Source: Aerophototrophica crusticola
Lineage (GTDB): Bacteria > Pseudomonadota > Alphaproteobacteria > Azospirillales > Azospirillaceae
DNA length: 36,151 bases
Assembly: GCA_001939945.1 (NCBI GenBank)
Contig: MOEB01000041.1
Location: 1-36,151, forward strand
Direction: 5' to 3'
The position numbers and the translations under genes are program-made. The notes under the pieces are model-generated. The model was given only the letters and a program-made list of their open reading frames with translations. It made no database searches and had not been told where the DNA came from. Of the stretch, positions 2,819 to 36,077 are shown one piece after another (the stretch's first letter is position 1; every line of letters begins with the position of its first letter).

Positions 2819-3313
2819 CTAGTACTCTTGTCGAGCCATACCTTTTCTCATACTGAAATACAGCAAGAGAGCTTTACTTATCAGGGTCGCCTGTGAACAT
2901 AATGCAAAGAACAAGCATGTAAAATAACTGTAGCCTGAAGCTGAATCGAAAAGTTTCAGTACAAAATCAGTGAACAGATAAATGGCAATCACTCCAATAA
3001 TAAAATCCTGAAGCCAAAAACGCTGCTCAGGTATCCTTCTTGAACGGTTCTCCCTGTTCATAGCCCATAGCAAATGGGATACTTGAAGGACGATGCAGAA
3101 CACGATAGGTAAAACATTGTAAACTTCTTTAGGCAAATGATCAGTATTCTCTGATGCAGATGATGAGATCCAGAAGATATTCATCCCTATCAGGTCATAG
3201 ATCAGTACAATCAGAAACGTTAATGCCGCGATTTTTGCTGCTGGATCAGAAAAATCTCTATCAAATAAATCTCTCTCTGTTTTAGGTTCAAAGTTAAGCC
3301 TGAAACTGATCAT
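2819..3313 (-). CDS. AT-rich four-helix membrane protein, unknown function
   Basis: The product is about 164 residues with four hydrophobic segments near 29-50, 66-85, 103-122 and 129-152, and a short charged N-terminus (FEPKTERDLFDRDF). I do not recognise the family. The ATG at 3313 follows AGAAAGGAA, though that motif sits closer than usual. A TTG at 3349 would add 12 residues but has no ribosome-binding site. Base composition is far more AT-rich than ilvD on one side and fumarase on the other. Imperfect inverted repeats of ACACGGA/TCCGTGT units flank the gene at 2725-2743 and 3348-3400. This suggests a horizontally acquired cassette. Confidence 0.7.
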   Translation of the reverse strand: MISFRLNFEPKTERDLFDRDFSDPAAKIAALTFLIVLIYDLIGMNIFWISSSASENTDHLPKEVYNVLPIVFCIVLQVSHLLWAMNRENRSRRIPEQRFWLQDFIIGVIAIYLFTDFVLKLFDSASGYSYFTCLFFALCSQATLISKALLLYFSMRKGMARQEY

Positions 3314-3347
3314 TTCCTTTCTGCCATTTATGAGATAGGCGTCCGAC

Positions 3348-3400
3348 AATCCGTGTTATTCCGTGTAGCCGACGACGCCAGCGTCCGTGTCCGTCCGTGT
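3348..3400. repeat. TCCGTGT repeat cluster, right copy
   Basis: Four TCCGTGT units in about 53 bp: two near 3350-3366 and two at 3384-3400. They are inverted relative to the ACACGGAT units at 2725-2743. The cluster lies between the membrane-protein gene and the fumarase stop codon. Confidence 0.6.
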
Positions 3401-3463
3401 AAAACTGCACCAACGGCAATCAGGGGCGCGACCTCTCTAGCCGCGCCCCACACAAAGACCGGT

Positions 3464-5080
3464 TCAGTGCGCCCACTCGTCGAAGAAGTCGTTGCCCTTG
3501 TCGTCGGTGACGATGAAGGCGGGGAAGTCCTCGACCTCGATGCGCCAGATGGCTTCCATGCCCAGCTCGGGGAAGGCGATGCATTCCACCTTGCGGATGC
3601 AGTCCTGGGCCAGCCGGGCCGCGGCACCGCCGATGGAGCCCAGGTAGAAGCCGCCATGCTTCTTGCAGGCTTCCTTCACCGCCGGGCTGCGGTTGCCCTT
3701 GGCCAGCATGACGAAGCTGCCGCCCGCCGCCTGGAACTGGTCCACGAAGCTGTCCATGCGCCCGGCCGTGGTAGGGCCGAAGCTGCCGGAGGCGTAGCCG
3801 GTGGGGGTCTTGGCCGGGCCGGCATAGTAGATGGGGTGGTTCTTGAAGTAGTCGGGCAGGCCCTGCCCCTCTTCCAGCGCCGCCCGCAGCTTGGCATGGG
3901 CGGAATCCCGGGCCACGATCAGCGGGCCGGTCAGGGACACGCGGGTGCGGATCGGGTACTGGCTGAGGGTGCGGCGGATTTCCTCCATCGGCCGGGTCAG
4001 GTCGATGCGCACCACTTCCCCGGACAGGTCACCCTCCTGCACCTCCGGCAGGAAGCGGGCGGGGTCGCGCTCCAGCTCCTCCAGGTAGATGCCATCCTTG
4101 GTGATCTTGGCCAGCGCCTGGCGGTCGGCGGAGCAGGAGACGCCGATGCCGATGGGCAGGCTGGCGCCGTGGCGGGGCAGGCGGATCACCCGCACGTCGT
4201 GGCAGAAATACTTGCCGCCGAACTGGGCGCCGATGCCCAGGCCCTGGGCCAGCACATGGACCTGCGCCTCCATCTCCAGGTCGCGGTAGGCGTGGCCGCT
4301 GTCGGAGCCCTGCGTGGGCAGGCCGTCATAGTAGCGGGCGGAGGCCAGCTTGACCGTCTTCAGGTTCTGCTCCGCGCTCAAGCCCCCGATCACCACCGCC
4401 AGATGGTAGGGCGGGCAGGCTGACGTACCGAGGGAGGCGATCTTGTCCTTCAGGAAAGGCACCAGCCGGTCCGGCGCCAACACCGACGGCGTCGCCTGGA
4501 ACAGGAAGGTCTTGTTGGCCGACCCGCCGCCCTTGGCCATGAACAGGAACTTGTAGGCGTCGTCCCCGTCGGCGAAGATCTCGATCTGGCCGGGCAGGTT
4601 GGTGCGGGTGTTCTTTTCCTCGAACATGGAGAGCGGCGCCACCTGGCTGTAGCGCAGGTTCCGCTTCTGGTAGGCGTCCAGGATGCCGCCGGACAGGGCC
4701 GTTTCATCGGCCCCCTTGGTCCAGACCCGCCGGCCCTTCTTGCCCATGACGATGGCCGTGCCCGTGTCCTGGCACATGGGCAGCACACCGCCCGCGGCGA
4801 TGCCGGCGTTTTTAAGAAGATCGAGCGCCACGAACCTGTCGTTTGATGATGCTTCCGGATCCGCCAGGATGGCGCGGAGCTGGGCCAAGTGGCCGGGGCG
4901 CAGCAGGTGGTTGATGTCGATGAAGGCCTGCTCCGCCAACAGCCGCAGCCCCTCCGGCTCCACCTTCAGGATCGTCTCCCCCTCGAACTCGGCGGTGGAG
5001 ACGTAATCGCTGGTGAGCTTGCGATAGGGGGTGGTGTCGGGGCCGAGGGGGAACAGGCTGAAACCGCTGTCCTGCGCCAT
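3464..5080 (-). CDS. fumA: Class I (4Fe-4S) fumarate hydratase
   Basis: Class I fumarase interconverts fumarate and malate in the TCA cycle using an oxygen-sensitive 4Fe-4S cluster. The 538-residue product has the expected length and both family halves: the N-terminal hydratase region to about residue 320 and the C-terminal domain with the SLTGPL and ARDSAHAK motifs. Cluster cysteines are Cys103 (PMCQDTGTA), Cys222 (TSACPPYH) and Cys316 (GVSCSADR). The frame stays open upstream to 5428, but [13 protein letters not shown] is the natural start; the extension is low-complexity and unlike the family. The ribosome-binding site is weak. There is no operon partner. A possible small RNA ends in the opposite direction upstream. 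Confidence 0.96.
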
Positions 5081-22746: not shown

Positions 22747-22800
22747 TCGAAATCGCCGCCCCGGCAGGTTTTCTGCCCGGGTGTGGCCAGTGTCGGGTTC

Positions 22801-22833
22801 GGCATAAGATGAGAAAAGTTGGCATAAGCCGAA
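22801..22833 (-). promoter_or_regulatory. Paired GGCATAAG direct repeats, possible activator site
   Basis: GGCATAAG occurs at 22801 and again at 22821, exactly 20 bp apart, and further matches follow each copy. TTCGGC (22798-22803) and GCCGAA (22828-22833) also form an inverted pair around the site. It lies about 55 bp beyond the Fur box, away from the receptor gene. Two same-face direct repeats are typical of AraC-type activators of siderophore genes. No such regulator gene is in the window. The remaining sequence to 22992 shows nothing else I can assign. Confidence 0.4.
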
Positions 22834-22992
22834 AATGAGTTGTGAATAAAGTCATAGTGCGGGAAGTAACGCCTCAGCAGTTTTCACTGATCTCTTTACT
22901 TCAAGTCCTAGAGACGCCATATTATCCGGGTCGACGCCGCAATTGGCAAAAGATGATATTCCTTTGGCTGGCTTTCTCCGCAGGAGGGCAAT

Positions 22993-23205
22993 ATGGCCGT
23001 ATGGTCCGAGGAAGAAGCTGCCGCGCGCTTCGGCGAGTTGCTCGATGAAGCGACACGAAGCGGGCCGCAGGTGGTCAACAGGGATGGTAAGTCCAATGTC
23101 GTGGTGTTGGACCTTGACGCATTTCAGGCACTTGCGCGTGCCGATGGTCGCTTCAAGGACCTGCTGGCCGCCATGCCGCGCATGAACGACGGGAGAGTAA
23201 AATAG
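22993..23205 (+). CDS. Phd/YefM-type antitoxin
   Basis: The 70-residue product has the Phd/YefM antitoxin layout: a DNA-binding N-terminus (WSEEEAAARFGELLDEATRSGPQVVNRDGKSNVVVLDLDAF) and a short toxin-binding tail ending MNDGRVK. CAGGAGGGCAAT gives a strong ribosome-binding site before ATG 22993. Antitoxins of this type are normally followed at once by a PIN-domain toxin, but no toxin follows here. The best partner is the PIN gene at 24327-24821, which lies about 1.1 kb away on the other strand. Confidence 0.85.
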   Translation: MAVWSEEEAAARFGELLDEATRSGPQVVNRDGKSNVVVLDLDAFQALARADGRFKDLLAAMPRMNDGRVK

Positions 23206-23359: not shown

Positions 23360-23926
23360 TCATCTTTGGTTTCCTGAAAGCGGAAAGAACAACTCATTGA
23401 TGCATCCGGCTGTGTAGTGGAGGATCTCCAATGCCATGCCAGGGGTATAAATGGACTGCCGCTCTGCATGGGAGGCCTGATTGCGAAGCTCCCGCGCCGC
23501 CTGCCAGCGCCCCGCGGTCGATTTATCGAACAGCCCGCGTTTGGCAGCCCATTCGATTCGGTCAGCGAAGGTCATCTTTGGTTTCTGACAGCCCGCCAAG
23601 CGGCACCGCGCGTCCAGGGCTGTATCGAGGACACGGAAGAGTTGCTCGGCACCCAAGGTGTACAAAGGGTAGAAGAAGGCGCCGTAGCACAAGGAACCTT
23701 TCGCCACCTCAAAGAGCTTACGAACCTCGAGGGGGGCATGATCTGTCAATTGCACCGCGAGCACTTGGCTGGCAAGGCTCTGCGGAGTAACAGATTGTGT
23801 GAAACTTGGCGCAGTGCACCAAACAAGATTACTGATGGCCTTGTCGGGAAGCAACCAGTTCTCGACAGTCAATCGCTTGAAGCCAAAAGCTTCAACCTCG
23901 TCACCCTCCACATTGTCGGTGCCCAC
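23360..23926 (-). CDS. HEPN-like helical protein
   Basis: The 188-residue product is predicted mainly helical. It contains ARELRNQASHAERQS, in which Arg148 and His153 form the Rx4H signature of HEPN RNases (RN...H form). The helices before it (FFYPLYTLGAEQLFRVLDTAL) and after it (GMALEILHYTAGCINELFF) fit the four-helix HEPN bundle. The start is a GTG at 23926, 9 nt after the stop of the 62-residue gene, which suggests a two-gene operon. HEPN proteins often act in toxin-antitoxin or anti-phage systems. No adjacent MNT nucleotidyltransferase is present. The family call is from the motif and helix pattern only. Confidence 0.65.
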   Translation of the reverse strand: MGTDNVEGDEVEAFGFKRLTVENWLLPDKAISNLVWCTAPSFTQSVTPQSLASQVLAVQLTDHAPLEVRKLFEVAKGSLCYGAFFYPLYTLGAEQLFRVLDTALDARCRLAGCQKPKMTFADRIEWAAKRGLFDKSTAGRWQAARELRNQASHAERQSIYTPGMALEILHYTAGCINELFFPLSGNQR

Positions 23927-23935
23927 CTAATGGCC

Positions 23936-24124
23936 TCAGGAGTTGTTGGTGTCTCGGCCATCAGGCTCCTTGGCCACGCCCTTGAAAGGTTTGCCATCGT
24001 CCTTTACCGCCATGAACTTCCCGTCGCCCTCGTTCCGCTTCTGCCAGAGCCCATCCTCACGTTGGAATTGGGTACGGCCCTTGACGGCACCGCGCCGGAA
24101 GCCCTCGCCCGTGTTCTTTGCCAT
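23936..24124 (-). CDS. Small basic conserved-looking protein, 62 residues
   Basis: The product begins MAKNTGEGFRRGAVKGRTQF and continues with DGLWQKRNEGDGKFMAVKDDGKPFKGV. It is strongly charged, with a WxKR...G+FM.VK pattern that I recall from small uncharacterised bacterial proteins. The ribosome-binding site (GGGATT) is weak. It precedes the HEPN-like gene by 9 nt and is probably cotranscribed with it, so it could be its partner or antitoxin. That role is an inference from position. Confidence 0.6.
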   Translation of the reverse strand: MAKNTGEGFRRGAVKGRTQFQREDGLWQKRNEGDGKFMAVKDDGKPFKGVAKEPDGRDTNNS

Positions 24125-24326
24125 TTGAACAATCCCAGAGCTTGAATTCGTCATTCCCCACGGCTTGATCCCGCACATCGCGTTCATCGGTGCCAGGATG
24201 CAGAATGCCGTAGCCGGTGATGATTGCGGGATCATATACCGGGCAATCTTTGACAGCAATCCGCATAGATGCTGGACGTCCTCTGCCCATGCCCAGCTTC
24301 TACCAAGATTCACGTCTGCTGCTATT

Positions 24327-24821
24327 TCAACGATGCAGCCCGTTCTGGCATTGGACCGCCAAAACGTCATCGGGCTCTGTCGCTGGCCGCAGGAGGTTAG
24401 GAACACGGGGCATGAATGGGTTCACCAAGCCAACACCAAAGCCCTCGAAATGACGGGTATTGCGGGTAGACACAACAAGGCCATGCCGCAGGGCCGACGC
24501 AGCGATCCAGGCGTCGGCTGGCGGCGGTGTCGGGGTGCGGGATGACAGCTCTCCCCAGATCCGGGCCGTTGCCACGTCGATTTTGAGGATCCTGTCGGCG
24601 AAGACGAAGGTGATGGCGGAAAGCCAACCTTGGAGCTGGCGGGCACGGGCGACATTCCGACGACGCACCAGCGCGACACCCTTGGCGATCTCCCCCACCG
24701 TCATCGCGTCAAGGAAGAGTTCCTCGTCAGGTATGGCCGAAAACCATGCGAGCACGTTCACGTCGGGCCTGGGCCGCGAGAGCTCGCTGGCCACATTGTT
24801 GTCCAGGAGATAGCCCAGCAT
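24327..24821 (-). CDS. PIN-domain toxin, VapC/FitB type
   Basis: The 164-residue product has a PIN-domain RNase fold with the acidic metal-binding residues in place: Asp7 (YLLDNNVASEL), Glu44 (TVGEIAKGV), Asp103 (PADAWIAASAL) and the TRNTRHF strand near residue 121. The SELSRPRPD start is typical of FitB/VapC toxins paired with Phd/YefM antitoxins. Nothing antitoxin-sized lies upstream; only 147 bp separate it from the AAA+ gene. About 25 residues after the usual end (LVNPF) look like read-through into unrelated sequence. It is probably the partner of the antitoxin at 22993, split from it by rearrangement. Confidence 0.85.
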   Translation of the reverse strand: MLGYLLDNNVASELSRPRPDVNVLAWFSAIPDEELFLDAMTVGEIAKGVALVRRRNVARARQLQGWLSAITFVFADRILKIDVATARIWGELSSRTPTPPPADAWIAASALRHGLVVSTRNTRHFEGFGVGLVNPFMPRVPNLLRPATEPDDVLAVQCQNGLHR

Positions 24822-24968: not shown

Positions 24969-26441
24969 CTAATGTTTGGTGACCGCGGAAGCCGCTGTGG
25001 CCAAAGCCCTCAGGACCCCAGCCCTGAGCTGCCTGGGTTGACCTCCACGGGCAAAGGCAGCCCTCAAGCGGGAGACCGCGGCCTCGTCCAACTCCGGCAG
25101 ATGTGCCGGGGAGATGCCGTACTCCGCGGCGACGTCATCCAACACGCCGGACAGGACGATGCCGAAGTCCTCTTGCCTCGGCCGCCCCACCTCGACGATG
25201 CCGAGCCTAGATCGCAGGGCGGCCGGCACCTTGTCGGCGTCATTGGCACAAAGGACCCAGGAAACCCAGGAGATGTCGCAGGTGCAGCCCAGCCCCTCAT
25301 CCGGGAAGACCTTGGCCGTGCCCGGTTCCAGCATGGCAAGCAGGCTGTCCCAGACGGAGCCGTTCGTGCGGCTGGGCGACACCTTGTCTACCTCGTCCAC
25401 CAGCAGGAGAGGATTTGCAACCCTCGCCGAGGCGATCTCGACCACGGGACGGGCAGGCCGGGATTTGGACCAACCCTTGGCCGTACCCTGCAGATCGCGG
25501 CTATCCGAGCTACCGCCGGCGGAGATGATTGCCCAATGAATGCCCGCCAGTTCCGCGAGGCGGCGCACGAAGCGGGACTTGCCAACCCCCGGTGGTCCCG
25601 TGATGAGCATGGGGCGGATTCGGAACGCGCGCACGCCTACGAGGGCAGCCAGGGCAAGGTCGTCCCTGACCCTGTCAATGGCCGGGATCATCCAGGGGAA
25701 TTCAGCCGCAAGCTGCCGATGCAGTTGGCCGGGTGACAGGGCACATTCCCTAAGCGGCAGGGGTGAGCCGAGGGACGCATACTGCGCATCGCAGCTGCCC
25801 AATCGGGGGGCAACGACCAGCGACCCTGGCTGGGTGCTCGCTTGGCATGCCTTGTCCCCTTCTTCTTCCGCCTCTTGGGTGTTGTCGTCAGTCCCCCAAT
25901 CTGCCTCCTCGCCGTCACCGTCCTTGGCCTTGGCCCCCAGCGACAGGCTGGCGCCGAGTGCATTGTGGATGTCGCGGGGGTCGTGGGCCCACTGCATGAC
26001 CTTGTCGGCTACGCGCACAAGCGCCAGCCTGGCAGCCCTCACGACACCCAAAGCCTGTGCCCTGCCCGATCGGAGGTCCCTGTAGACCTCGCATGCGAAC
26101 ATCACCTGTGCGCCCTTCGAACCCTCATGGGCCGCATACCAAAGCCAGCCCCGGCGGAGGATCGGCCCGGTGGAACTCAGGTGCCATAAGCTTGGGTTGC
26201 GCAGCACCACACAGCCGAGCGCAGATGCGCTGTCCACGTCGCCCGCTGCTGCCACGGCTGTCAACTCGCGGACACGAGGCGGGCATTTGCCGTTTGTGGC
26301 CGCCATGAATCCCCGCGTGGCCTCCGCCAACTCGAGAAGACACCTGTCCAACTCGTCCTGCTCCATCTCGAATGGATCGAGGAGCCATAAGCTTGTGATC
26401 GGATGGCGGCCGGCGCCGCCACTCCCTTCTTGATTGTCCAT
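24969..26441 (-). CDS. Lon-type AAA+ ATPase without protease domain, divergent from tnsA
   Basis: The 490-residue product has an N-terminal helical part with Sel1/TPR-like spacing (about 40-155), an acidic linker (175-197), and one AAA+ module. Walker A is GPPGVGKS (282-289), Walker B LLLVDEVDK (346-354), sensor 1 VLCAND, the arginine finger region PAALRSRL, and sensor 2 GGQPRQLR near the end. The GGSSDSRDLQG and LLAMLEP...F.DEGL segments follow the Lon ATPase pattern, but the protein stops where Lon's Ser-Lys protease would begin. GGGGGTGAG precedes ATG 26441. Its place beside the tns operon suggests a role in transposition or cargo defence; neither is shown. Confidence 0.88.
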   Translation of the reverse strand: MDNQEGSGGAGRHPITSLWLLDPFEMEQDELDRCLLELAEATRGFMAATNGKCPPRVRELTAVAAAGDVDSASALGCVVLRNPSLWHLSSTGPILRRGWLWYAAHEGSKGAQVMFACEVYRDLRSGRAQALGVVRAARLALVRVADKVMQWAHDPRDIHNALGASLSLGAKAKDGDGEEADWGTDDNTQEAEEEGDKACQASTQPGSLVVAPRLGSCDAQYASLGSPLPLRECALSPGQLHRQLAAEFPWMIPAIDRVRDDLALAALVGVRAFRIRPMLITGPPGVGKSRFVRRLAELAGIHWAIISAGGSSDSRDLQGTAKGWSKSRPARPVVEIASARVANPLLLVDEVDKVSPSRTNGSVWDSLLAMLEPGTAKVFPDEGLGCTCDISWVSWVLCANDADKVPAALRSRLGIVEVGRPRQEDFGIVLSGVLDDVAAEYGISPAHLPELDEAAVSRLRAAFARGGQPRQLRAGVLRALATAASAVTKH

Positions 26442-27260: not shown

Positions 27261-27941
27261 ATGCCCAAGCCATGGGAACGATGTGGGCCATTCTCTCCGG
27301 CCCGCCGGGTCGTGACCACGCGGCCTCGCCGCATCGTCGGCTTCATCCCGAGCCTGAAGGCGGGCCGCCTCCTCGCCTGGGAGTCCCAGCTAGAGCGCGA
27401 CTTCATCCTAACCACCGACATGGACCCGGCGGTGACGGGCCTGTGGGACCAACCCGAACGCATCGAGTACCGGCTCGGAAAGACAAGACACACCTACACA
27501 CCCGACTTCCGGGTAGAACGAGATGGCGTGGCTGAGGTCGTCGAAGTAAAGCCCGCCCACTTCGCCGCCCGGCCGGACACCGCGGCCGTCCTCGACACCG
27601 TGGCCAGGGTCGTCCGAGCGAGGGGTGAGAGCTTCACCGTCGTTGGTGAAGAAGAAATCCGCGCGCCGGCCAAGATTGCCAACGCTAGGGCCCTCTTCAT
27701 CGCCTCAAGGCAGTTCCCAACCCCAGGCGAACTGCTCGAATGTGCCGGGGCCGCCGATGGTGGCAAGGCTGCGACGCTTGGCAGCCTGTCGGCCTGCCTT
27801 GGCTATCAGGATCACCTCCAGATCCTGCACTTGGTCGCCCACGGGATCGTGGTCGTCGACATCTCGGAGCCGCTTGGCCCCAACGCGTTGGTGCGCAAGG
27901 TCAGGCTCAGCCCCGCAATGAAAAAGACGGGTGCACCATGA
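27261..27941 (+). CDS. tnsA: Tn7-like transposase endonuclease subunit TnsA
   Basis: TnsA cuts the 5' ends of the transposon so that, together with TnsB, it is excised cleanly (cut-and-paste). The 226-residue product has the restriction-enzyme-like catalytic core: Glu41 (AWESQLERDF), Asp82 (TYTPDFRV) and Glu95-x-Lys97 (VVEVKP). A C-terminal part of about 110 residues follows, including a helical region that in Tn7 contacts TnsC. GGGGG lies just before ATG 27261. The stop overlaps the tnsB ATG (ATGA). Having TnsA means simple insertion rather than the cointegrates of TnsA-less elements. Confidence 0.9.
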   Translation: MPKPWERCGPFSPARRVVTTRPRRIVGFIPSLKAGRLLAWESQLERDFILTTDMDPAVTGLWDQPERIEYRLGKTRHTYTPDFRVERDGVAEVVEVKPAHFAARPDTAAVLDTVARVVRARGESFTVVGEEEIRAPAKIANARALFIASRQFPTPGELLECAGAADGGKAATLGSLSACLGYQDHLQILHLVAHGIVVVDISEPLGPNALVRKVRLSPAMKKTGAP

Positions 27942-29983
27942 GGTTGCCGGTTGCATGTGAGCTGGACCTGGATGGCGTCGCCTACACGGTCGCCGGCAAG
28001 ACTGACGAGGGCTATGTCCAGCTCCAAGCCGACGAAAGCCTGGCTTTCCGGGCGGCCCCGATCGGGGAGCTTCTGGAGGCGTGGGGCCAGGGGCGTCTGA
28101 AGATCTTCAGGCACGGCCGGCCCCGACGGAACCCAGCCTCGCCGGAACCTGCGTTCGACGCCCTGCCGGAGAGATTGCGCTCGGAAGCCAGGAGGGCCGA
28201 AGGCTATGTCAAGGCCCTCCTCGCCGAGTGCCCTGGGTCGTTCACGGAGCGGACGGTAGTGCCGGTGCTCAAGCGGGAAGCCGAACGTCTCGGTGACGAC
28301 CGCGTGCCGAGCTTCTCGACCGCCTACCGCTGGCACCGTAGATGGCGGGACTCAGGCGGGGACATCCGGACCCTCATCCCGGACCACCACCGGAAGGGAA
28401 ACCGCACCCGCCGCGTGTCACCTGGGGTCATCGAGCATACCCGTGAGGTCGTCGAGGAGTTCTGCATGCGTGGCGAGGAATGGTCGCCCAAGTCAATGCA
28501 TCAACTGCTGGCGCATAGGATCGGGCAGGCGAACGCTGTACAGGGCACGGCCCTGCCGGTCCCGGGGATCGGCGTGGTCCGGGCCGAGATGTCGAGGCTC
28601 GACCCCATGGAGGTCGCCACGGCACGGCATGGTCCGGGCGCGGCGAAGAGGCAGTACGTCGCGCGTGGCAAATGCCCCGGGACCTCCAGGCCCCTCGAGG
28701 TGGTCGAGATCGACCACACCCTCCTCGACGTCATGGTGGTGGATCGGCGATACGGGGTGACGCTTGGCCGGCCATGGCTCACGGTCGCGCTGGACCGCCA
28801 CACCCGCCTTCCGGTGGGGATGTGCCTTGGTTTCGAGCCGCCGGGCTATCTGACGGTGATGCGGTGCCTGCGGCACTTGATCATGCCGAAGGGGTATGTA
28901 CGGGAGCGGTTCCCCGACATCGAGGGCGACTGGCCGTGCCATGGCCTGCCGGAGACGATCGTGGTGGACAACGGCAAGGAGTTCCACAGCGAAAGCTTCA
29001 GGGACGCCTGCTCGCGGCTGCGGGTTGCCATCCAGTACTGCGTCGCTGGGGAGCCCTGGCTGAAAGGCAAGGTCGAGCGATTCTTCGGCACGCTGGCAAG
29101 GGACGTGATCCACCGCCTCCCGGGAACCACCTTTTCCAACATCCGGCAACGGGGCGAATACAAATCCCAGGAGCTCGCGCAGGTCACCATCGACGAGCTG
29201 GACCACAAGCTGCACCAGTGGATCTGCGATCTGTATGCGGAAAGTTTCCACACGGGCCTGCTGAAAGCACCTCGGGCCGCGTGGCAGGATGCCCTGTCCA
29301 CCTGGGAGCCCCAGTTGCCAACCGAGCGCGGCGACCTCGACATCCTCGTGGCCGCCGCGACAGAGCGGATGGTACGGCGGGACGGCGTGGAGCTTTGGGG
29401 GCTTGTCTACGGCAGCGAAGGCTTGTCGGAGCTATACAGGAAGCTCAGGGGCAATTCCGCCTCCAAGGTGAGGGTGAAGTACGACCCAGGCTGCATCGAC
29501 AAGGTCTGGGTCGAGGACCGGGAGCGTCACGTCTGGATCGAGGCTAGTGCGACGGATCGGGAGTATGCGCGCGGACTCTCACTTCACCTGCACCAATTGG
29601 TGAGGCGGAAGGCCGTCGCTGACGGCAAGGGCCGCATCAGGATCAGCGCACTCGCACGGGCACGCACCAAGCTTGCCGAAGCCACCGAAGCGCAGCTGCA
29701 GCGTAAGGGTGGTGCCAAGGCGGCCCGCGCCGCTGGCCACGGGCCGTCCAGGGATGCGCCCGCCAACAGGGCCTCCGGACCCGACACGGCAGCTGCCAAA
29801 CCGCCGCCGGGCGGTGGGCCGAGCGGAAGCAAGACGGCACTGCCTCCAGACCCTGGTGGCGGGCCAAACCCACCCAGCCACTCGCGGGAGGATCAAGTAG
29901 GTCCGGTGCCTCGGGATGAGGAGATGGGAAGTGAAGAGCTCGGGGTGACGATGGTGCCCCCGCGCTGGGGTCGGTCACGGTGA
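27938..29983 (+). CDS. tnsB: Tn7-like DDE transposase TnsB
   Basis: TnsB binds the transposon ends, cuts the 3' strands and joins them to the target. In the 681-residue product the N-terminal half holds helix-turn-helix DNA-binding segments (for example VPSFSTAYRWHRRWRDSG, 123-140). The RNase H-fold core has the DDE triad Asp259 (VVEIDHTLLDV), Asp344 (IVVDNGKEFHS) and Glu380 (KGKVERFFGTL). A beta-barrel domain follows to about 590. The last 90 residues are a Pro/Gly/Ala-rich linker ending EELGVTMVPPRWGRSR, which may be the TnsC-binding hook. Start ATG 27938 overlaps the tnsA stop; the longer open frame upstream is a shadow of tnsA. Confidence 0.93.
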   Translation: MRLPVACELDLDGVAYTVAGKTDEGYVQLQADESLAFRAAPIGELLEAWGQGRLKIFRHGRPRRNPASPEPAFDALPERLRSEARRAEGYVKALLAECPGSFTERTVVPVLKREAERLGDDRVPSFSTAYRWHRRWRDSGGDIRTLIPDHHRKGNRTRRVSPGVIEHTREVVEEFCMRGEEWSPKSMHQLLAHRIGQANAVQGTALPVPGIGVVRAEMSRLDPMEVATARHGPGAAKRQYVARGKCPGTSRPLEVVEIDHTLLDVMVVDRRYGVTLGRPWLTVALDRHTRLPVGMCLGFEPPGYLTVMRCLRHLIMPKGYVRERFPDIEGDWPCHGLPETIVVDNGKEFHSESFRDACSRLRVAIQYCVAGEPWLKGKVERFFGTLARDVIHRLPGTTFSNIRQRGEYKSQELAQVTIDELDHKLHQWICDLYAESFHTGLLKAPRAAWQDALSTWEPQLPTERGDLDILVAAATERMVRRDGVELWGLVYGSEGLSELYRKLRGNSASKVRVKYDPGCIDKVWVEDRERHVWIEASATDREYARGLSLHLHQLVRRKAVADGKGRIRISALARARTKLAEATEAQLQRKGGAKAARAAGHGPSRDAPANRASGPDTAAAKPPPGGGPSGSKTALPPDPGGGPNPPSHSREDQVGPVPRDEEMGSEELGVTMVPPRWGRSR

Positions 29984-30000
29984 TCCGGGAGTGACGAACG

Positions 30001-31020
30001 ATGGTGATGACCAATGGCGGGGCGCGGGCCGACTTGGTGGTGGACGGGCGCGAGGCGATCACCAGGTTGCGGTCGGCGGTGATCGGGCATTCCCGGCTGG
30101 TGAAGGCGGAGCGCCACCTCCGTGACCTGCATGCGGAAAACCGAACCGCGGATGAGCAGCGGTGCATCCTCATCTGTGGGGACACCGGCAGCGGGAAGAC
30201 CAGCCTGCTCCGCCGCTTTTCCCTTCCCTTCCAGGAGCGGGTCACCCCGGAGGCGGACATCCTACCAGTGCTGCAGGTGGTCTGCCCGGCCAAGTGCACC
30301 ATCAAGTCGCTTGCGGAGACGATGCTGGTGCAGCTGGGGGACCCTCGGCCCGGGTTGGGTACCGTGCCCTCCCTGACGCGCCGCGTCCTGACCTTGCTGG
30401 AAGGCCGCGGGGTGGAGATCGTGCTGCTGGATGAGTTCCAGCAGCTGGTTGACCACAGGACAGAGCGTGTCGCGGTGGAGGTGTCGGACTGGGTGAAGAG
30501 CCTGTTGAACGGCGGCCCATGCCCGATCGCGTTGGTTGGCATGCCGGGGGCGGAAAGGGTGCTCGACGCCAACCCGCAGCTCGCGCGACGCTGCATGGCT
30601 CGGGTGGGGCTCACGGAGTTCGACCCGGGGAGTGAGCAAGACCGCCTGGAATTCAGGAACATCCTGGGGCGGTTGGAGAAGGTGCTGGACCTGCCCCAAT
30701 CCTCCGGGCTCCACCGGGCTGACCTTTCCTTGAGGATCCAGGTGGCGACGGGCGGCTTGTTGGGCGGTGTCGCGGCGCTGCTCTCCAATGCCCTGCGGCT
30801 GGCGGAGGACAGGAGAATGTCTTGCCTTGACCAGCTGGTGCTCCGGGACGCGCACGAGCAGTCGCGACCGCTGGGACGGCGACACTGGCAGAACCCGTTT
30901 GACCTTGACCAGCCCGAGCCCGTGGTCGCGGGCCCCGAACTGGTCAATGGCCAGCCCAACAGGGAGACGCGCCTGCGGAAACGGAAAAGCTCGCCCGCAT
31001 TCGCCGAGGAGGGCGTCTGA
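30001..31020 (+). CDS. tnsC: Transposition AAA+ regulator TnsC (TniB-like)
   Basis: TnsC is the ATPase that links the target-selection protein to the TnsA/TnsB transposase and enforces target immunity. The 339-residue product has Walker A GDTGSGKTS (60-68), Walker B IVLLDEFQQL (140-149), and a sensor-1-like ALVGMPG. RxLARRC-type residues follow, near ANPQLARRCMARV. Its C-terminal 50 residues are basic (RETRLRKRKSS) and could bind DNA or TniQ. It starts 17 bp after tnsB and its TGA overlaps the tniQ ATG. Length and motifs are closer to TniB than to E. coli Tn7 TnsC, which is longer. Confidence 0.92.
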   Translation: MVMTNGGARADLVVDGREAITRLRSAVIGHSRLVKAERHLRDLHAENRTADEQRCILICGDTGSGKTSLLRRFSLPFQERVTPEADILPVLQVVCPAKCTIKSLAETMLVQLGDPRPGLGTVPSLTRRVLTLLEGRGVEIVLLDEFQQLVDHRTERVAVEVSDWVKSLLNGGPCPIALVGMPGAERVLDANPQLARRCMARVGLTEFDPGSEQDRLEFRNILGRLEKVLDLPQSSGLHRADLSLRIQVATGGLLGGVAALLSNALRLAEDRRMSCLDQLVLRDAHEQSRPLGRRHWQNPFDLDQPEPVVAGPELVNGQPNRETRLRKRKSSPAFAEEGV

Positions 31021-32357
31021 TGGCCAACGCGAACACCAAGCTCCGATCTGCGCCGCTGCACCTGAGGGTCACGCCGTACCCCGACGAGCCGCTCCTGGGC
31101 TTCGTGGCCCGGCTGGCGGAGCGCAACGGCCTGGACGCGACCACCTGGGTCTACGAGATGGTTGGCTGGCGTCGCACGCTCCTGGACGTCAGCAACGAGC
31201 CGCTGGGATTGCTCTCGGCCATCTCGGGCGTCGCGGAGGAGCGGCTGGCCTGGGCTGCGCAAGGCAGCACCGGCGAGGGGAACCGACGCCGGTTCTTTGG
31301 GGACACGGTGTACCGTGACCAACTCTTCTACTTCCGCCGGCGGGTCTGCACGGCCTGCTTCGCTGAGGCTCCCTACCAGCGGGCGGCCTGGATGCTGGAC
31401 GGGCAGGACTGGTGCCCGAGGCACCGGGTGCGCCTCAGGTGCGCCTGCCACATGTGCGGCATCGACTACAGCTGGTGGATCCCCTGCGTACGGACCTGTG
31501 CCGCCTGCGGCGCTGACCAGGCCGGGGCAGCAGCCCAACCAGCCCCGCCAGGCATTTCCGGCTTCCTCGATGAAGTCGGGAGGCGCCTTGAAGCGGCGTG
31601 CGACGGGGGCGACCTGGAAGTCTGGGGGTTGCCGCTGCGCGACGCCTTGAGGCTTTGGCGTTTCCTGGGCCGGCTCGACGATATCGCCGACGGGGGGCGC
31701 GGGGATGACGGGACGCCTCGGGACTTGTCGTTCCTGGCCCGCGGGCATGCCTTGGCCGCGGCCTGGCCGAACGGGTTCTTCGACCTGCTGGACCGGGCCA
31801 GGGCGAGGGCCAAGCTGGAGAATTGGGGGCGGCAGGCCCAGAGGAACCATGGGGTGCACAAGGAGTTCGGCGTCACCTTCTGGAGCGCGCTCGGCGCCGT
31901 AAGGTCGAACCCTGTGCTGCGGGGGATCATCTTTCCGGCGCTGGAGACGTACCAAGCCAGTGCCCGCTTCCACATGTGGCGCAAGAAGGCGGTGAAGGCT
32001 GGGTCCAGCGCCATTGAGACGGCGACGATCCCGCTGACCAGCGTGGCCCGCTCCCTGCGCTTGGTCGGCCCGACAGTGCGGGCATTGTGTGAGACGCTTG
32101 GAATTCAGGTCCATACGATCCCGGCAAAAGGCCGATGGAGCGAGTATTCCTTTATTAACAAGGAAGATCTTGGGAAGCTGAAAGAAATGGCGCAGCACAT
32201 GTGCTCACGCAGAGAGGCTTCAAGAATGTTGGGGGTCAAGGAAGTAGAGATGGAAGGGATTTGCACGGCGGGTATGTTGAAGGCTTATCCGGGTGAGAAT
32301 GGAAGGCAGCCAAAGTTTGATAGGCGTGAGGTGAGGGCTTGGTGTTGCTCGGAATGA
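31020..32357 (+). CDS. tniQ: Target-selection protein TniQ (TnsD-like)
   Basis: TniQ/TnsD proteins choose the insertion site and recruit TnsC. The 445-residue product has an N-terminal TniQ domain (LRVTPYPDEPLLGFVARLAERNG). Zinc-binding clusters follow: Cys110/Cys113 (VCTACF), Cys132/His135 (WCPRH), and Cys143/Cys146 with Cys156, Cys160 and Cys163. A long helical region and a C-terminal helix-turn-helix-like segment (SRREASRMLGVKEVEM) complete it. The length suits a sequence-specific TnsD-like selector better than the short TniQ of CRISPR-guided elements. From about 32100 the codons become clearly AT-rich, unlike the first 1,080 bp, so the DNA-reading end may come from another source. The ATG overlaps the tnsC stop. 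Confidence 0.9.
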   Translation: MANANTKLRSAPLHLRVTPYPDEPLLGFVARLAERNGLDATTWVYEMVGWRRTLLDVSNEPLGLLSAISGVAEERLAWAAQGSTGEGNRRRFFGDTVYRDQLFYFRRRVCTACFAEAPYQRAAWMLDGQDWCPRHRVRLRCACHMCGIDYSWWIPCVRTCAACGADQAGAAAQPAPPGISGFLDEVGRRLEAACDGGDLEVWGLPLRDALRLWRFLGRLDDIADGGRGDDGTPRDLSFLARGHALAAAWPNGFFDLLDRARARAKLENWGRQAQRNHGVHKEFGVTFWSALGAVRSNPVLRGIIFPALETYQASARFHMWRKKAVKAGSSAIETATIPLTSVARSLRLVGPTVRALCETLGIQVHTIPAKGRWSEYSFINKEDLGKLKEMAQHMCSRREASRMLGVKEVEMEGICTAGMLKAYPGENGRQPKFDRREVRAWCCSE

Positions 32358-32554
32358 GTTGGCGCGACAAACTCACGGTTCCAATCGGTTTGATGGCCAG
32401 TTCACTCGCCAGAGAGCAGACTGCTTCACTGCGATAAATTTCAATGCACACAGTTTCAGCTCACGCTCTACGCCACCTCCTGCATATGCGGCTTGCGCTA
32501 CGTGCCTCCGCTAAGCATAATACGAAAGGGTTATTCTTATCTCAAAGGGTAGTC

Positions 32555-33511
32555 ATGAGCGGCGCCGCATCATTTAGTTTGTATCTAGACCTTGACAGTG
32601 GGACTAAGCCCGACATTGAGAATGTAGCTCGCGCTGCTATAGCTTTGTCCAGAGCTATTAAAGAAGTTGGATTGATTCTTGACCCACAAGTCGCTTTGAG
32701 GGTTGAACTCGTTAGCGGAACCGAAGGAAGCCTTAGTATTGATGCAGTCCTAAGGGTAGTACAAAACTTAATGGCGAGTTCTGAAAGCGCAAAAACTAGT
32801 GAATTACTCACACTGAAAGCAGCAATCATATTGATTGCGTGTTGGTTTGGCATGCAAACACTCCAATATACTTACGAACAGGTCCTGGACGCTATTCTTG
32901 AAGAAATCACAGATGCGGAAATTAAAAAGAGTAAAGCTACAGCAGAGAGTTGCGCCGCAAAGGTCATAGAAGTGATTGAAAAGAAAGAAGCTGAGAAACA
33001 TGTCAGGGAAGTCTATAGAAATCTTGCAAAAGATGCTTCCATCCAAGGAGTAGGAATATCTTTCATTCCAGGGGTCAGGCCTTCTGAACTCGTTCCACGG
33101 TCTGAAATGGAGGTTCGTTCAGCAGTGGTTCGCGACACAGCAAATCAAAGGCGAGACAGAGAAGATGTCATTAAAGCCACTTTGCTTAGTCCATTTTTAG
33201 AAGACGCTAATCGGCGCTGGAAGTTTAAAACAAGAGAAGGCGAGTTCGGAGCTTCAATGGAAGATATGGAATTTCGTAGTTTACTATTAAATGGGAGATC
33301 CAATATAGTTATTGCGGCCGGTATTGAAATGGAGTTGCTTGTCGAGACTCGCGAGGAGCTACGCGATGGCGCTTGGCATGTTCGCGAGCGAATTGTTCGG
33401 GAGGTGAGAGGATTGTCAGTACCGATGAAACAAACAAGCTTTGATCTATCGCCAGCTGATTTGTCTAAGGCGGAAACAAATCAGAATAAAGATGATCAGG
33501 GCAATCACTGA
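32555..33511 (+). CDS. AT-rich gene for a single-span protein, unknown function
   Basis: The 318-residue product has an N-terminal alpha/beta-looking segment (FSLYLDLDSG, VALRVELVSGTEGSL), a hydrophobic stretch near 84-103 (TLKAAIILIACWFGMQTL), a charged helical region (DAEIKKSKATAES, 120-165) and a C-terminal part of mixed strands. I recognise no family. ATG 32555 follows AAAGGGTAG; the upstream in-frame Met at 32444 has no ribosome-binding site. The base composition is AT-rich, like the end of tniQ just before it. Its position behind the tns operon suggests transposon cargo, possibly defence-related, but nothing in the sequence proves that. Confidence 0.75.
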   Translation: MSGAASFSLYLDLDSGTKPDIENVARAAIALSRAIKEVGLILDPQVALRVELVSGTEGSLSIDAVLRVVQNLMASSESAKTSELLTLKAAIILIACWFGMQTLQYTYEQVLDAILEEITDAEIKKSKATAESCAAKVIEVIEKKEAEKHVREVYRNLAKDASIQGVGISFIPGVRPSELVPRSEMEVRSAVVRDTANQRRDREDVIKATLLSPFLEDANRRWKFKTREGEFGASMEDMEFRSLLLNGRSNIVIAAGIEMELLVETREELRDGAWHVRERIVREVRGLSVPMKQTSFDLSPADLSKAETNQNKDDQGNH

Positions 33512-34577: not shown

Positions 34578-35357
34578 CTAGACGTCGATCAGCCGGAGCT
34601 GCACGGCCCGCACCGCGGCGGCGGTGCGGTTGCTGGCGCCGAGCTTGGCCATGGCGGCGCGCACGTGGGTCTCCACGGTCTCGGCGGAGATGCCCAGGAT
34701 CGCCGCGATCGCGGCGGTGGTCTTGCCGCGCGCCGCCCAGGAGAGCACGTCGCGCTCGCGGTCGGTGAGGCGCGCCGCGGCCAGCGGGCGGCCCTCGCCG
34801 TCCAGGGCGCGGAAGCCCTGGGCCGGGTCCGGCCAGACGAAGTCCACGGCCCGCTCCTGCCAGTAGATCAGGAAGACGTGCAGCGCGTGCCGGTGGCGGG
34901 CGAGCAGCGCCTCGAACTCGGGCCGCGGCTCCTTCCAGAACAGCGCCGTCAGGGCGGAGCGCGGGCGGCCGAGCGCGTCCACCGAGTGGAACGGCACCAC
35001 GTAGCCCTCGCGGTAGCCGTGGTCCCGGGCGGCGTCCATGGCGCGCAGGGCCAGCGGCGCGGGCCCGGGCCCGCGCGGCGGCAGCGGCACGTCGCCCCAG
35101 GCGAAGGGCAGCCGGCGGCGGCGCGCGGCCGAGACCATGGGGTCGCCGTCCACCAGGTTGTTGTCGCGGTAGCAGCGCTGCCAGGCGTCCGGGCAGGTGC
35201 CGTGGAAGAACGGCGCGGCAGCGTCCGGGCGCCCCGTGTCCAGGTGGTTGAAGCTCTCGAAGCCCAGCGGCCCGATCGCCCGCTGGAGCAGCGCCGCCAG
35301 CTCCGCGAGCGTGCCCGCCTGCTGGACCTCGCCGATGAGGTGGTCAAGGTCGATCAC
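34578..35357 (-). CDS. luxR: LuxR-family quorum-sensing regulator
   Basis: The 259-residue product is a two-domain acyl-homoserine-lactone-responsive transcription factor. The autoinducer-binding domain shows the conserved residues in DAWQRCYRDNNLVDGDPMV (Trp59, Tyr63, Asp70, Pro73) and Trp87 (FAWGDVP). The C-terminal LuxR helix-turn-helix is LTDRERDVLSWAARGKTTAAIA, then TVETHVRAAMAKLGASNRTAA. The GTG at 35357 has GGGGAGG 6 nt upstream and is preferred over an ATG five codons earlier, which has no ribosome-binding site. It is divergent from the synthase gene. No clear lux box was found in the 87 bp between them. Confidence 0.92.
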   Translation of the reverse strand: MIDLDHLIGEVQQAGTLAELAALLQRAIGPLGFESFNHLDTGRPDAAAPFFHGTCPDAWQRCYRDNNLVDGDPMVSAARRRRLPFAWGDVPLPPRGPGPAPLALRAMDAARDHGYREGYVVPFHSVDALGRPRSALTALFWKEPRPEFEALLARHRHALHVFLIYWQERAVDFVWPDPAQGFRALDGEGRPLAAARLTDRERDVLSWAARGKTTAAIAAILGISAETVETHVRAAMAKLGASNRTAAAVRAVQLRLIDV

Positions 35358-35444
35358 ACGAATCCTCCCCATTTCCCGGGATGGCGCCCAGGCCGGGCGG
35401 GACGCTCTGATGCGCCCGCCTTGGATTGCAGGAGGCCTAGGCTG

Positions 35445-36077
35445 ATGGACGACCTAGCATATACGAAACGCGTCGCCGGACGCGAATTCCGGGTGCTGGC
35501 ATTCACCGTGGGGAGCCACACGGACCTGGTGTGGCAGACACTGCGCTTGCGCAAGCGCATCTTCGTGGACGGCCTGGGCTGGCCGCTGGCGGTGCGCGAC
35601 GGGGCCGAGCGCGACCAGTTCGACCGGCGCGACACGGTCTACGGCGCAGTGGTGGAGGCCGGCGCCCCGGTGGCCTGCTGGCGCATGCTGCCCACCACGG
35701 GGCCCTACCTCCTGGCCGAGGTCTTCCCGCACCTCGCCGGCGGGCACCCCCTGCCGCGCTCGCCGCGCGCCTGGGAGATCAGCCGGTTCGGCGCCGACCC
35801 GGCGCACCCGGCGCCGGATGCCTGCACCAAGGAGCTGCTCGCGCTGATGCTGGCCCTCGCGCGGCAGCGTGGGATCGAGACCGTGTGCGCGGTGACGGAC
35901 GAGGCCTTCGAGCGGGTGCTGCGCCGGGCGGGCCTCCGGCTGTTCCGCTACGGCACGGGGCCCGGCCCGGGCGAACGCGGCGCGCTGGTGGCGGGGGGGC
36001 TGCACGTGGCCGAGCAGGCGCCGCCGCGGGCGCCGCAGGCACGGCAGGCCGGGCGCGACCTGGGGGAGGCGGCCTGA
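35445..36077 (+). CDS. luxI: Acyl-homoserine-lactone synthase (LuxI family)
   Basis: LuxI enzymes make N-acyl-homoserine lactones from S-adenosylmethionine and an acyl donor. The 210-residue product has the invariant set: Arg37, Phe40 and Trp46 (LRKRIFVDGLGW), Asp57 and Asp60 (ERDQFD), Arg80 (ACWRML), and Glu111-x-x-Arg114 (WEISRFG). The C-terminal tail beyond about residue 190 is Pro/Arg-rich and unrelated to the fold. ATG 35445 follows GGAGGCCTAGGCTG. The stop overlaps the next gene's ATG (TGATG), so the two are coupled. The acyl chain cannot be read from the sequence. Confidence 0.93.
   Translation: MDDLAYTKRVAGREFRVLAFTVGSHTDLVWQTLRLRKRIFVDGLGWPLAVRDGAERDQFDRRDTVYGAVVEAGAPVACWRMLPTTGPYLLAEVFPHLAGGHPLPRSPRAWEISRFGADPAHPAPDACTKELLALMLALARQRGIETVCAVTDEAFERVLRRAGLRLFRYGTGPGPGERGALVAGGLHVAEQAPPRAPQARQAGRDLGEAA

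Follow-up and report, generated by a model that had tools for sequence, protein, structure and literature searches.

A large Tn7-like element in Aerophototrophica crusticola, with its probable ends on two contigs and a composition break within tniQ

The tns operon and its four proteins

The stretch of DNA analysed in this work (the window; 36,151 nucleotides, contig C265) contains tnsA, tnsB, tnsC and tniQ as a single intact operon on one strand (27261-32357), and this operon is only the core of a much larger element (Table 1). When the junctions between the genes are read directly, they consist of an ATGA overlap, within which the start of TnsB lies (27938), a 17-bp spacer and a TGATG overlap. 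Above the Pfam cut-offs, TnsC matches TniB (8.9e-26) and TniQ the TniQ family (1.2e-15), and TnsB carries the Pfam domains rve (integrase core) and Mu-transpos_C. The match of TnsA to TnsA_N of Pfam (3.7e-5, 24.6 bits) is below the gathering score of 26.5 bits, as is that to the NCBIfam TnsA model NF033179 (66.1 bits, cut-off 110), and the identity of this protein rests also on its conserved residues and its position in the operon. Among the rows matching at E < 1e-6, with the copies L050 and L065 excluded, the TnsA residues E45, D82, E95 and K97 are kept in 75, 76, 73 and 75 of 77 rows, respectively, and G65, K66 and D144 of TnsC in 82/82. In TnsB, D259, D344 and E380 are invariant (5/5 rows), and the same is true of C110, C113, C132, H135, C143, C146, C160 and C163 of TniQ (36/36 rows); from family knowledge, we take these residues of the four proteins to be the catalytic and zinc residues. 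With regard to membership in the Tn7-like group, a TnsB DDE transposase, a TnsC ATPase and a TniQ/TnsD protein are all present, and the TnsA endonuclease is recognised by motif and position though it scores below both cut-offs. The first-pass annotation, which had described a Tn7-like module of four genes with ATGA, 17-bp and ATG/TGA junctions and with intact motifs in all four proteins, is upheld by the re-reading of coordinates and junctions, by the conservation of the key residues across relatives and by the agreement of families, structure matches and motifs.

In the predicted structure of TniQ (31 rows; mean pLDDT 84.4, pTM 0.68), we read a helical core followed by two putative C-terminal winged-helix modules at about residues 336-391 and 394-445. 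Its best structure matches are TniQ chains of I-F3 systems (6.1e-08 and weaker) and a TnsD chain (8.7e-05), with TM <=0.48 over long alignments, and its tail matches BldC and Xis, weakly by E-value (0.2-0.8) and with TMt of 0.72-0.84.

Table 1. Features of the element in the window (positions in the window; C307 is another contig of the same genome)
Feature	Position	Strand	Basis or remark
5-bp target-site duplication GCCAG	22786..22790	.	second copy C307:34447-34451, same genome
Likely tnsA-side (right) end, terminal TGTCGGGT, TnsB-type 20-bp sites at about 22797, 22817, 22839	22791..22858	+	weight matrix (PWM), ends of relatives
DUF4145/HepT-like protein, weak	23363..23926	-	family match below cut-off
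PADLOC candidate PDC-S38	23936..24406	-	E 2.4e-20, residues 95-147
PIN-domain (VapC-like) protein	24327..24821	-	family match
AAA+ ATPase, Lon-like ATPase module, no protease domain matched	24969..26441	-	family match
tnsA, endonuclease	27261..27941	+	family match, conserved residues, operon position
tnsB, DDE transposase, 681 aa	27938..29983	+	rve, Mu-transpos_C; best PDB match Tn6677 I-F3 TnsB, 8.8e-74
tnsC, AAA+ regulator	30001..31020	+	TniB; best PDB match Tn6677 TnsC, 1.4e-31
tniQ/tnsD, target selector, 445 aa	31020..32357	+	TniQ family, conserved Cys/His, model
3' part of tniQ, putative exchanged tail	32073..32357	+	GC3 0.57 vs 0.88 upstream
LAPAL-family protein NF053583, low-GC	32444..33511	+	67.1 bits vs cut-off 60; PADLOC candidate PDC-S42, 1.3e-5
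LuxR-type autoinducer-binding regulator	34578..35372	-	cargo by position, if mate end right
Autoinducer synthase (LuxI-type)	35445..36077	+	cargo by position, if mate end right; contig ends at 36151

Probable ends, insertion site and cargo

The likely tnsA-side end of the element, which carries TGTCGGGTTCGGCATAA and TnsB-type sites, lies at window position 22791, 4.5 kb to the left of tnsA, and its probable mate, with TGTCGGGTACGGCATAA and TnsB-type sites, lies at C307:34446. The junction in the window reads GCCAG/TGTCGGGT, and that at C307:34446 reads ACCCGACA/GCCAG. The ends and the duplication, for which the first-pass annotation had proposed a search, could thus be located, the window end by means of a weight matrix built from the sites at the ends of relatives and the mate by looking in the genome for the duplication next to the terminus. 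When the window was scanned with the matrix, the third-best match (22797, 15.1 bits) and a weaker neighbour (22817) were directly inside the terminal octamer at 22791. A single site of 15.1 bits is within chance, as the best matches in 30 shuffles of the window had a mean of 11.6 and a maximum of 19.3 bits; since a lone end site is thus no better than a shuffled best, the case rests on array, terminus and duplication jointly. With a matrix free of the window and C307 sites, the top-three score of the array was matched by 1/2000 shuffles for the right end and by 0/2000 for the left. The duplication joined to TGTCGG occurs at 30 places in the genome itself, and C307:34446 alone has several TnsB-type sites (inward sites of 21.3, 19.2 and 18.4 bits), the next best place having a single site of 10.4 bits, where the matrix scoring these places included two window sites. 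The 17-mer without the duplication has two exact matches in the 6.06 Mb of genome sequence, viz. window 22791 and C307:34446, with GCCAG standing outside both of them on the two contigs; one further match was found at 2 mismatches, and a reversed control gave one match at <=2 mismatches. Across position 22800, the GC content changes from 0.69 to 0.51 (600-bp bins on either side).

The terminal octamer, or a near form of it, also opens the ends of L096, L109, L117 and L051, and L038 has TGTCGGTT at both ends. Both ends with matching 5-bp duplications are seen in L117 and L107 (2/20 loci tested, the far end of some lying outside the fetched stretch); a candidate left end in L066 was dropped (5/12 matches). 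At the right end of the window element, the sites are about 20 bp apart, and the left end has one terminal site and three further in; for Tn7, a section of PMC8649781 gives three left and four right TnsB sites. No mate end was found to the right of the operon within the window by terminal-repeat or matrix searches. Candidates from blind searches for terminal repeats and duplications were rejected, shuffled sequence having reached equal scores and, in a second search, nothing having clustered, and the ATGACGA repeats upstream of tnsA were dropped as end sites (11 in the window, 0 to the right of the operon).

The insertion spot is intergenic, between a gene for a TonB siderophore receptor and yceI. 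On the left, the element is flanked by the DNA upstream of the receptor gene (minus strand); the longest ORF of this gene overlaps the transposon end by 15 bp, but relatives align to it only from residue 92, and by eye, a stem-loop lies just before the insertion. In the right flank, yceI (C307:34573) is followed by cytochrome b561. The earlier view that no homing site is evident from the flanks does not hold, because the ends and the 5-bp duplication place the insertion in the receptor/yceI spacer. The two flanks were not seen side by side in any of the 11 genus genomes searched, own included: G001, G003, G006 and G010 have a useful length of the yceI side, and G002, G005, G006 and G008 have good receptor matches, those in G006 being on a different contig from the yceI side. 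The LuxR/LuxI genes were rejected as a flank for finding an empty site, since they are misleading for this purpose and belong to the interior of the element, provided that the mate end is correct.

The element extends beyond the right edge of its contig. Its part in the window, from 22791 to the contig end at 36151, amounts to 13,361 bp, and C307:1-34446 adds 34,446 bp. If C265 and C307 belong to one insertion, as we infer, the element would be at least 47.8 kb, with a gap remaining between the contigs in which a cas locus or a second selector could lie. Because of this gap, and since the contig ends at window 36151 and C307:1 share no exact overlap, the contiguity and length are to be read as a reconstruction, in which the TnsB-site arrays of the two ends and the two copies of the duplication are present on two contigs.

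Among the ORFs scanned, a subset of those in the window and C307:1-34446, cargo genes are seen in the window (Table 1) and in the C307 part. The latter has Shango proteins (SngC 2.5e-261, SngB 2.8e-178, SngA 2.6e-87), Zorya-type proteins (ZorA2 3.7e-94, ZorB2 2.7e-95), an N6-methylase, a ThiF plus JAB protein, a UvrD helicase with PD-(D/E)XK and M78 domains, a second M78 peptidase, a tail-collar/lectin protein and others. Defence cargo of this type is named in the title of PMC8649781. If both contigs are one insertion, the element would thus carry a defence island and a LuxR/LuxI pair. A short ORF just inside the end (22993-23205, plus strand) is by eye a candidate Phd/YefM-like antitoxin, and LuxR/autoinducer synthase pairs similar to that at 34578-36077 are seen at other places in the genus genomes G004 and G010.

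Read from the operon and its motifs, the two matching end arrays, the duplication and the cargo genes, the locus is most probably a Tn7-like transposon of large size that moves by cut-and-paste, is protein-targeted and CRISPR-free, appears intact and may be active. By homology to Tn7 and CASTs, TnsB would bind the arrays of sites at the two ends and, together with TnsA, would excise the element, and TnsC would connect TnsA/TnsB to TniQ, which may bind target DNA via its two C-terminal winged-helix modules; insertion between the siderophore-receptor gene and yceI would then have left the GCCAG duplication. What appeared as a module of four genes would thereby become a delimited mobile defence island, and the end motifs of relatives offer a way to locate Tn7-like ends across contigs.

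Relatives of the element and the tail of TniQ

Relatives were collected by an alignment-based scan with one genome per species, and the best 80 of 368 loci were used. When the window proteins served as queries at E 1e-5, a complete set of the four genes, in order and on a single strand, was seen in 41 of these best 80 of 368, whereas 26 are without a detected TniQ, 4 are without a detected TnsA and 9 lack more than that. A single-protein scan of genome contigs found no relatives, and a viral scan gave 7 distant loci. In 21 of the best 80 of 368, gyrB is found on the tnsA side and strand, viz. L051, L052, L066, L068, L069, L072, L075, L076, L079, L093, L094, L096, L100, L106, L107, L109, L113, L115 (a partial match), L117, L120 and L122, and the same is seen in L041 from the plasmid collection. 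Outside their downstream parts, these loci look CRISPR-free, and most lie a few bp after the stop codon of gyrB. As a raw count, a TGTC occurs 2 to 40 bp after this stop in 19 of the 21 loci read (20 of the 80 plus L041; L115 excluded), that of L107 not being its terminus, which lies 61 bp after the stop. The ribonucleotide reductase gene nrdB is present in 5 loci, and it is on the tnsA side in 4 of the best 80 of 368 (L061, L062, L063 and L084, the match in L084 being only 39% identical), since the copy in L124 is on the opposite strand, past tniQ.

Within the open-access literature, we found no paper in which gyrB is named as an insertion site of Tn7-like, TniQ or TnsD elements, and the site may be unpublished or filed otherwise. 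Its paralogue is parE. In the main texts of PMC10293859, PMC8649781 and PMC11406308, gyrB is unmentioned, PMC12452197 uses it for typing, and PMC11406308, a 2024 review, describes some I-F3 CASTs with a parE-targeting TnsD.

In the TnsB tree (92 rows), the window stands alone on a long branch. The nearest row by path is the gyrB-site element L051 (36% identity), and the next nearest are L064 and the nrdB-side loci L061-L063. The I-F3 CAST rows group with L119 and L128, away from the window, and the gyrB rows do not make up a single clade (3 changes needed). The tree has quick support, and with its long branch and unusual letter make-up the exact place of the window is unsure.

Some further loci may be mentioned. 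In L098 (Thalassospira; 2825-4144 onward), the TniQ/TnsD gene is broken and its tail continues in another frame, due to which its short TnsD was rejected as a natural parallel to the TniQ of 445 aa. A second, distant TnsABC set is present in the same genome as the window (L036, G000:C13; TnsB 31-33% identical). The Tns regions of L034 and L037, from genus species G010 and G005, are 91% identical over 5.6 kb, with shared stretches of 69-77% around them. In the TnsABC element L040, on an Azospirillum oryzae plasmid, TniQ is matched twice, by ORFs of 280 and 517 codons.

The tniQ gene of the window shows a drop in GC3 from 0.88 to 0.57 at codon 351, which was reached by 0/2000 shuffles. A tail beyond the codon-351 column is present in 31 of the 36 TniQ/TnsD genes compared. 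The window gene has the steepest GC3 fall at this column (0.31, against 0.17 for the next gene) and also the highest break score (20.0). Other breaks reached by 0/100 shuffles lie elsewhere than the window junction, viz. L126 (17.1, codon 104, in an ORF that begins ahead of the probable start of the gene), L080 (7.8, codon 264) and L100 (6.5, codon 86). Within the operon, tnsB shows a milder composition break (12/1000 shuffles as high), and tnsA and tnsC none. The low-GC stretch continues from the tniQ tail through the LAPAL cargo gene to about 33700. No donor was found for the tail or the LAPAL gene in plasmids, nor for the tail in viral contigs in a scan for close relatives.

The composition break at codon 351 suggests an exchanged target-recognition tail. 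We tentatively propose, as a possible course of events, a target switch in which a gyrB-type TnsD core, up to about codon 350, acquired a foreign tail and cargo of lower GC content (32073 to about 33700) that moved the element from gyrB to the intergenic site. The main rival to this exchange is truncation, in which a gyrB-site transposon lost its distal TnsD modules, leaving a copy that is stranded or of low specificity. The position of L051 in the tree and the location of the element away from gyrB are in accordance with it, as is the fact that TniQ is colinear with the gyrB-site TnsD to residue ~430, about 200 residues of their tail being absent, with no convincing continuation downstream (best tblastn E 0.06; none by profile). 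However, both end arrays and a clean duplication are present, so that the element did insert at the receptor/yceI site, TniQ ends in a well-modelled second winged helix, and the GC3 change precedes the end of the gene, which an exchange fits better than a simple loss; truncation thus appears rather unlikely. The tail exchange is a new reading, and the protein-targeted Tn7-like transposon is a known kind. If true, the exchange would mean that a target-recognition module was replaced in nature and that the junction can still be recognised, and it would be a testable case in which a protein-guided transposon may change its target through the tail of TniQ. The gyrB-site relatives, whose many TnsD proteins apparently share a target, offer a natural set for comparison.

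A Tns operon that is defective or domesticated and lies immobile in a defence island would agree with the lone long TnsB branch and with the lack of any close copy among the loci found; however, the conserved residues and the two matching ends with a perfect duplication are retained, and in the TnsB phylogeny, which the first-pass annotation had proposed, the window lies among elements several of which have paired ends, with no recognised domesticated ones, making this explanation very unlikely.

A CRISPR component was sought at several levels. In the window, the ORFs scanned included no cas gene, and neither an Rfam match nor a repeat array was seen. Triple repeats of the CRISPR type were found neither in the window nor in C307:1-60000. 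The scanned proteins of the window and C307:1-34446 included no Cas effector set, and Cas names came up only through SngC, which cross-matches Cas3 helicases weakly (2.4e-12 at best). The cas effector genes and array by which a CAST is recognised were thus not seen among the ORFs scanned or by the repeat scan in the window and C307:1-34446, a scope that ends at the assembly gap. A CAST whose cas genes and array lie in the gap between window 36151 and C307:1, with TniQ as a Cascade adaptor, would suit the solved structures closest to TnsB, TnsC and TniQ and the matches of TniQ to PADLOC TniQ models labelled I-F (7.3e-17, 2.3e-11), but it is highly improbable, as in the I-F3 elements compared a 2.1-kb gene (hypothetical in L138, Csy2 in L139) and csy3 come after tniQ, where the window has low-GC cargo instead, the repeat and effector searches gave nothing, and the I-F3 TnsB rows group apart. 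The gene families and the repeat scan therefore bear out, for the scanned parts, the earlier statement that no cas gene or array is visible, and TniQ is the likely selector, as that annotation had proposed. A single selector of 445 aa is of a known kind, because in sections of PMC10293859 (Faure and others) 2,905 loci have a single TniQ/TnsD protein, and these proteins are described as having the same core, extended to different degrees at the C terminus, with intermediate sizes being hard to assign.

Comparison with known systems

The large, protein-targeted transposon that we favour can be compared with four known kinds of elements. The prototype Tn7 shares with it TnsABC together with a TnsD/TniQ protein, the 5-bp duplication and the asymmetric end arrays. 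However, the window element is not flanked by glmS, it does not occupy the 3' end of a conserved gene in the way that Tn7 does, no TnsE is present among the scanned ORFs, and its TnsB is distant (1.4e-19). Tn6022, with TniQ and TnsF at comM, is likewise CRISPR-free and has a shorter TniQ of 369 aa, according to a section of PMC10293859, whereas in the window the gene after tniQ is LAPAL/PDC-S42 rather than a TnsF-like recombinase and the site is intergenic and not comM. The type I-F3 CASTs (Tn6677, PseCAST) provide the closest solved TnsB, TnsC and TniQ, but the window element is without cas genes seen beside tniQ and without an array in the examined parts, and it has the extra C-terminal winged helices. 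The gyrB-site elements of Alphaproteobacteria (L052 from Skermanella stibiiresistens and L051 from a Rhodospirillales MAG) share with the window the operon tnsA-B-C-tniQ/tnsD, and they resemble it in their TGTC termini, tandem TnsB-type sites and TnsB proteins of 34-39% identity. However, L052 and L051 lie a few bp after gyrB and have TnsD genes of 642 and 649 codons, whereas the window, in which a search for gyrB gave no match, carries an element with a TniQ of 445 aa that is inserted elsewhere, between the TonB receptor gene and yceI.
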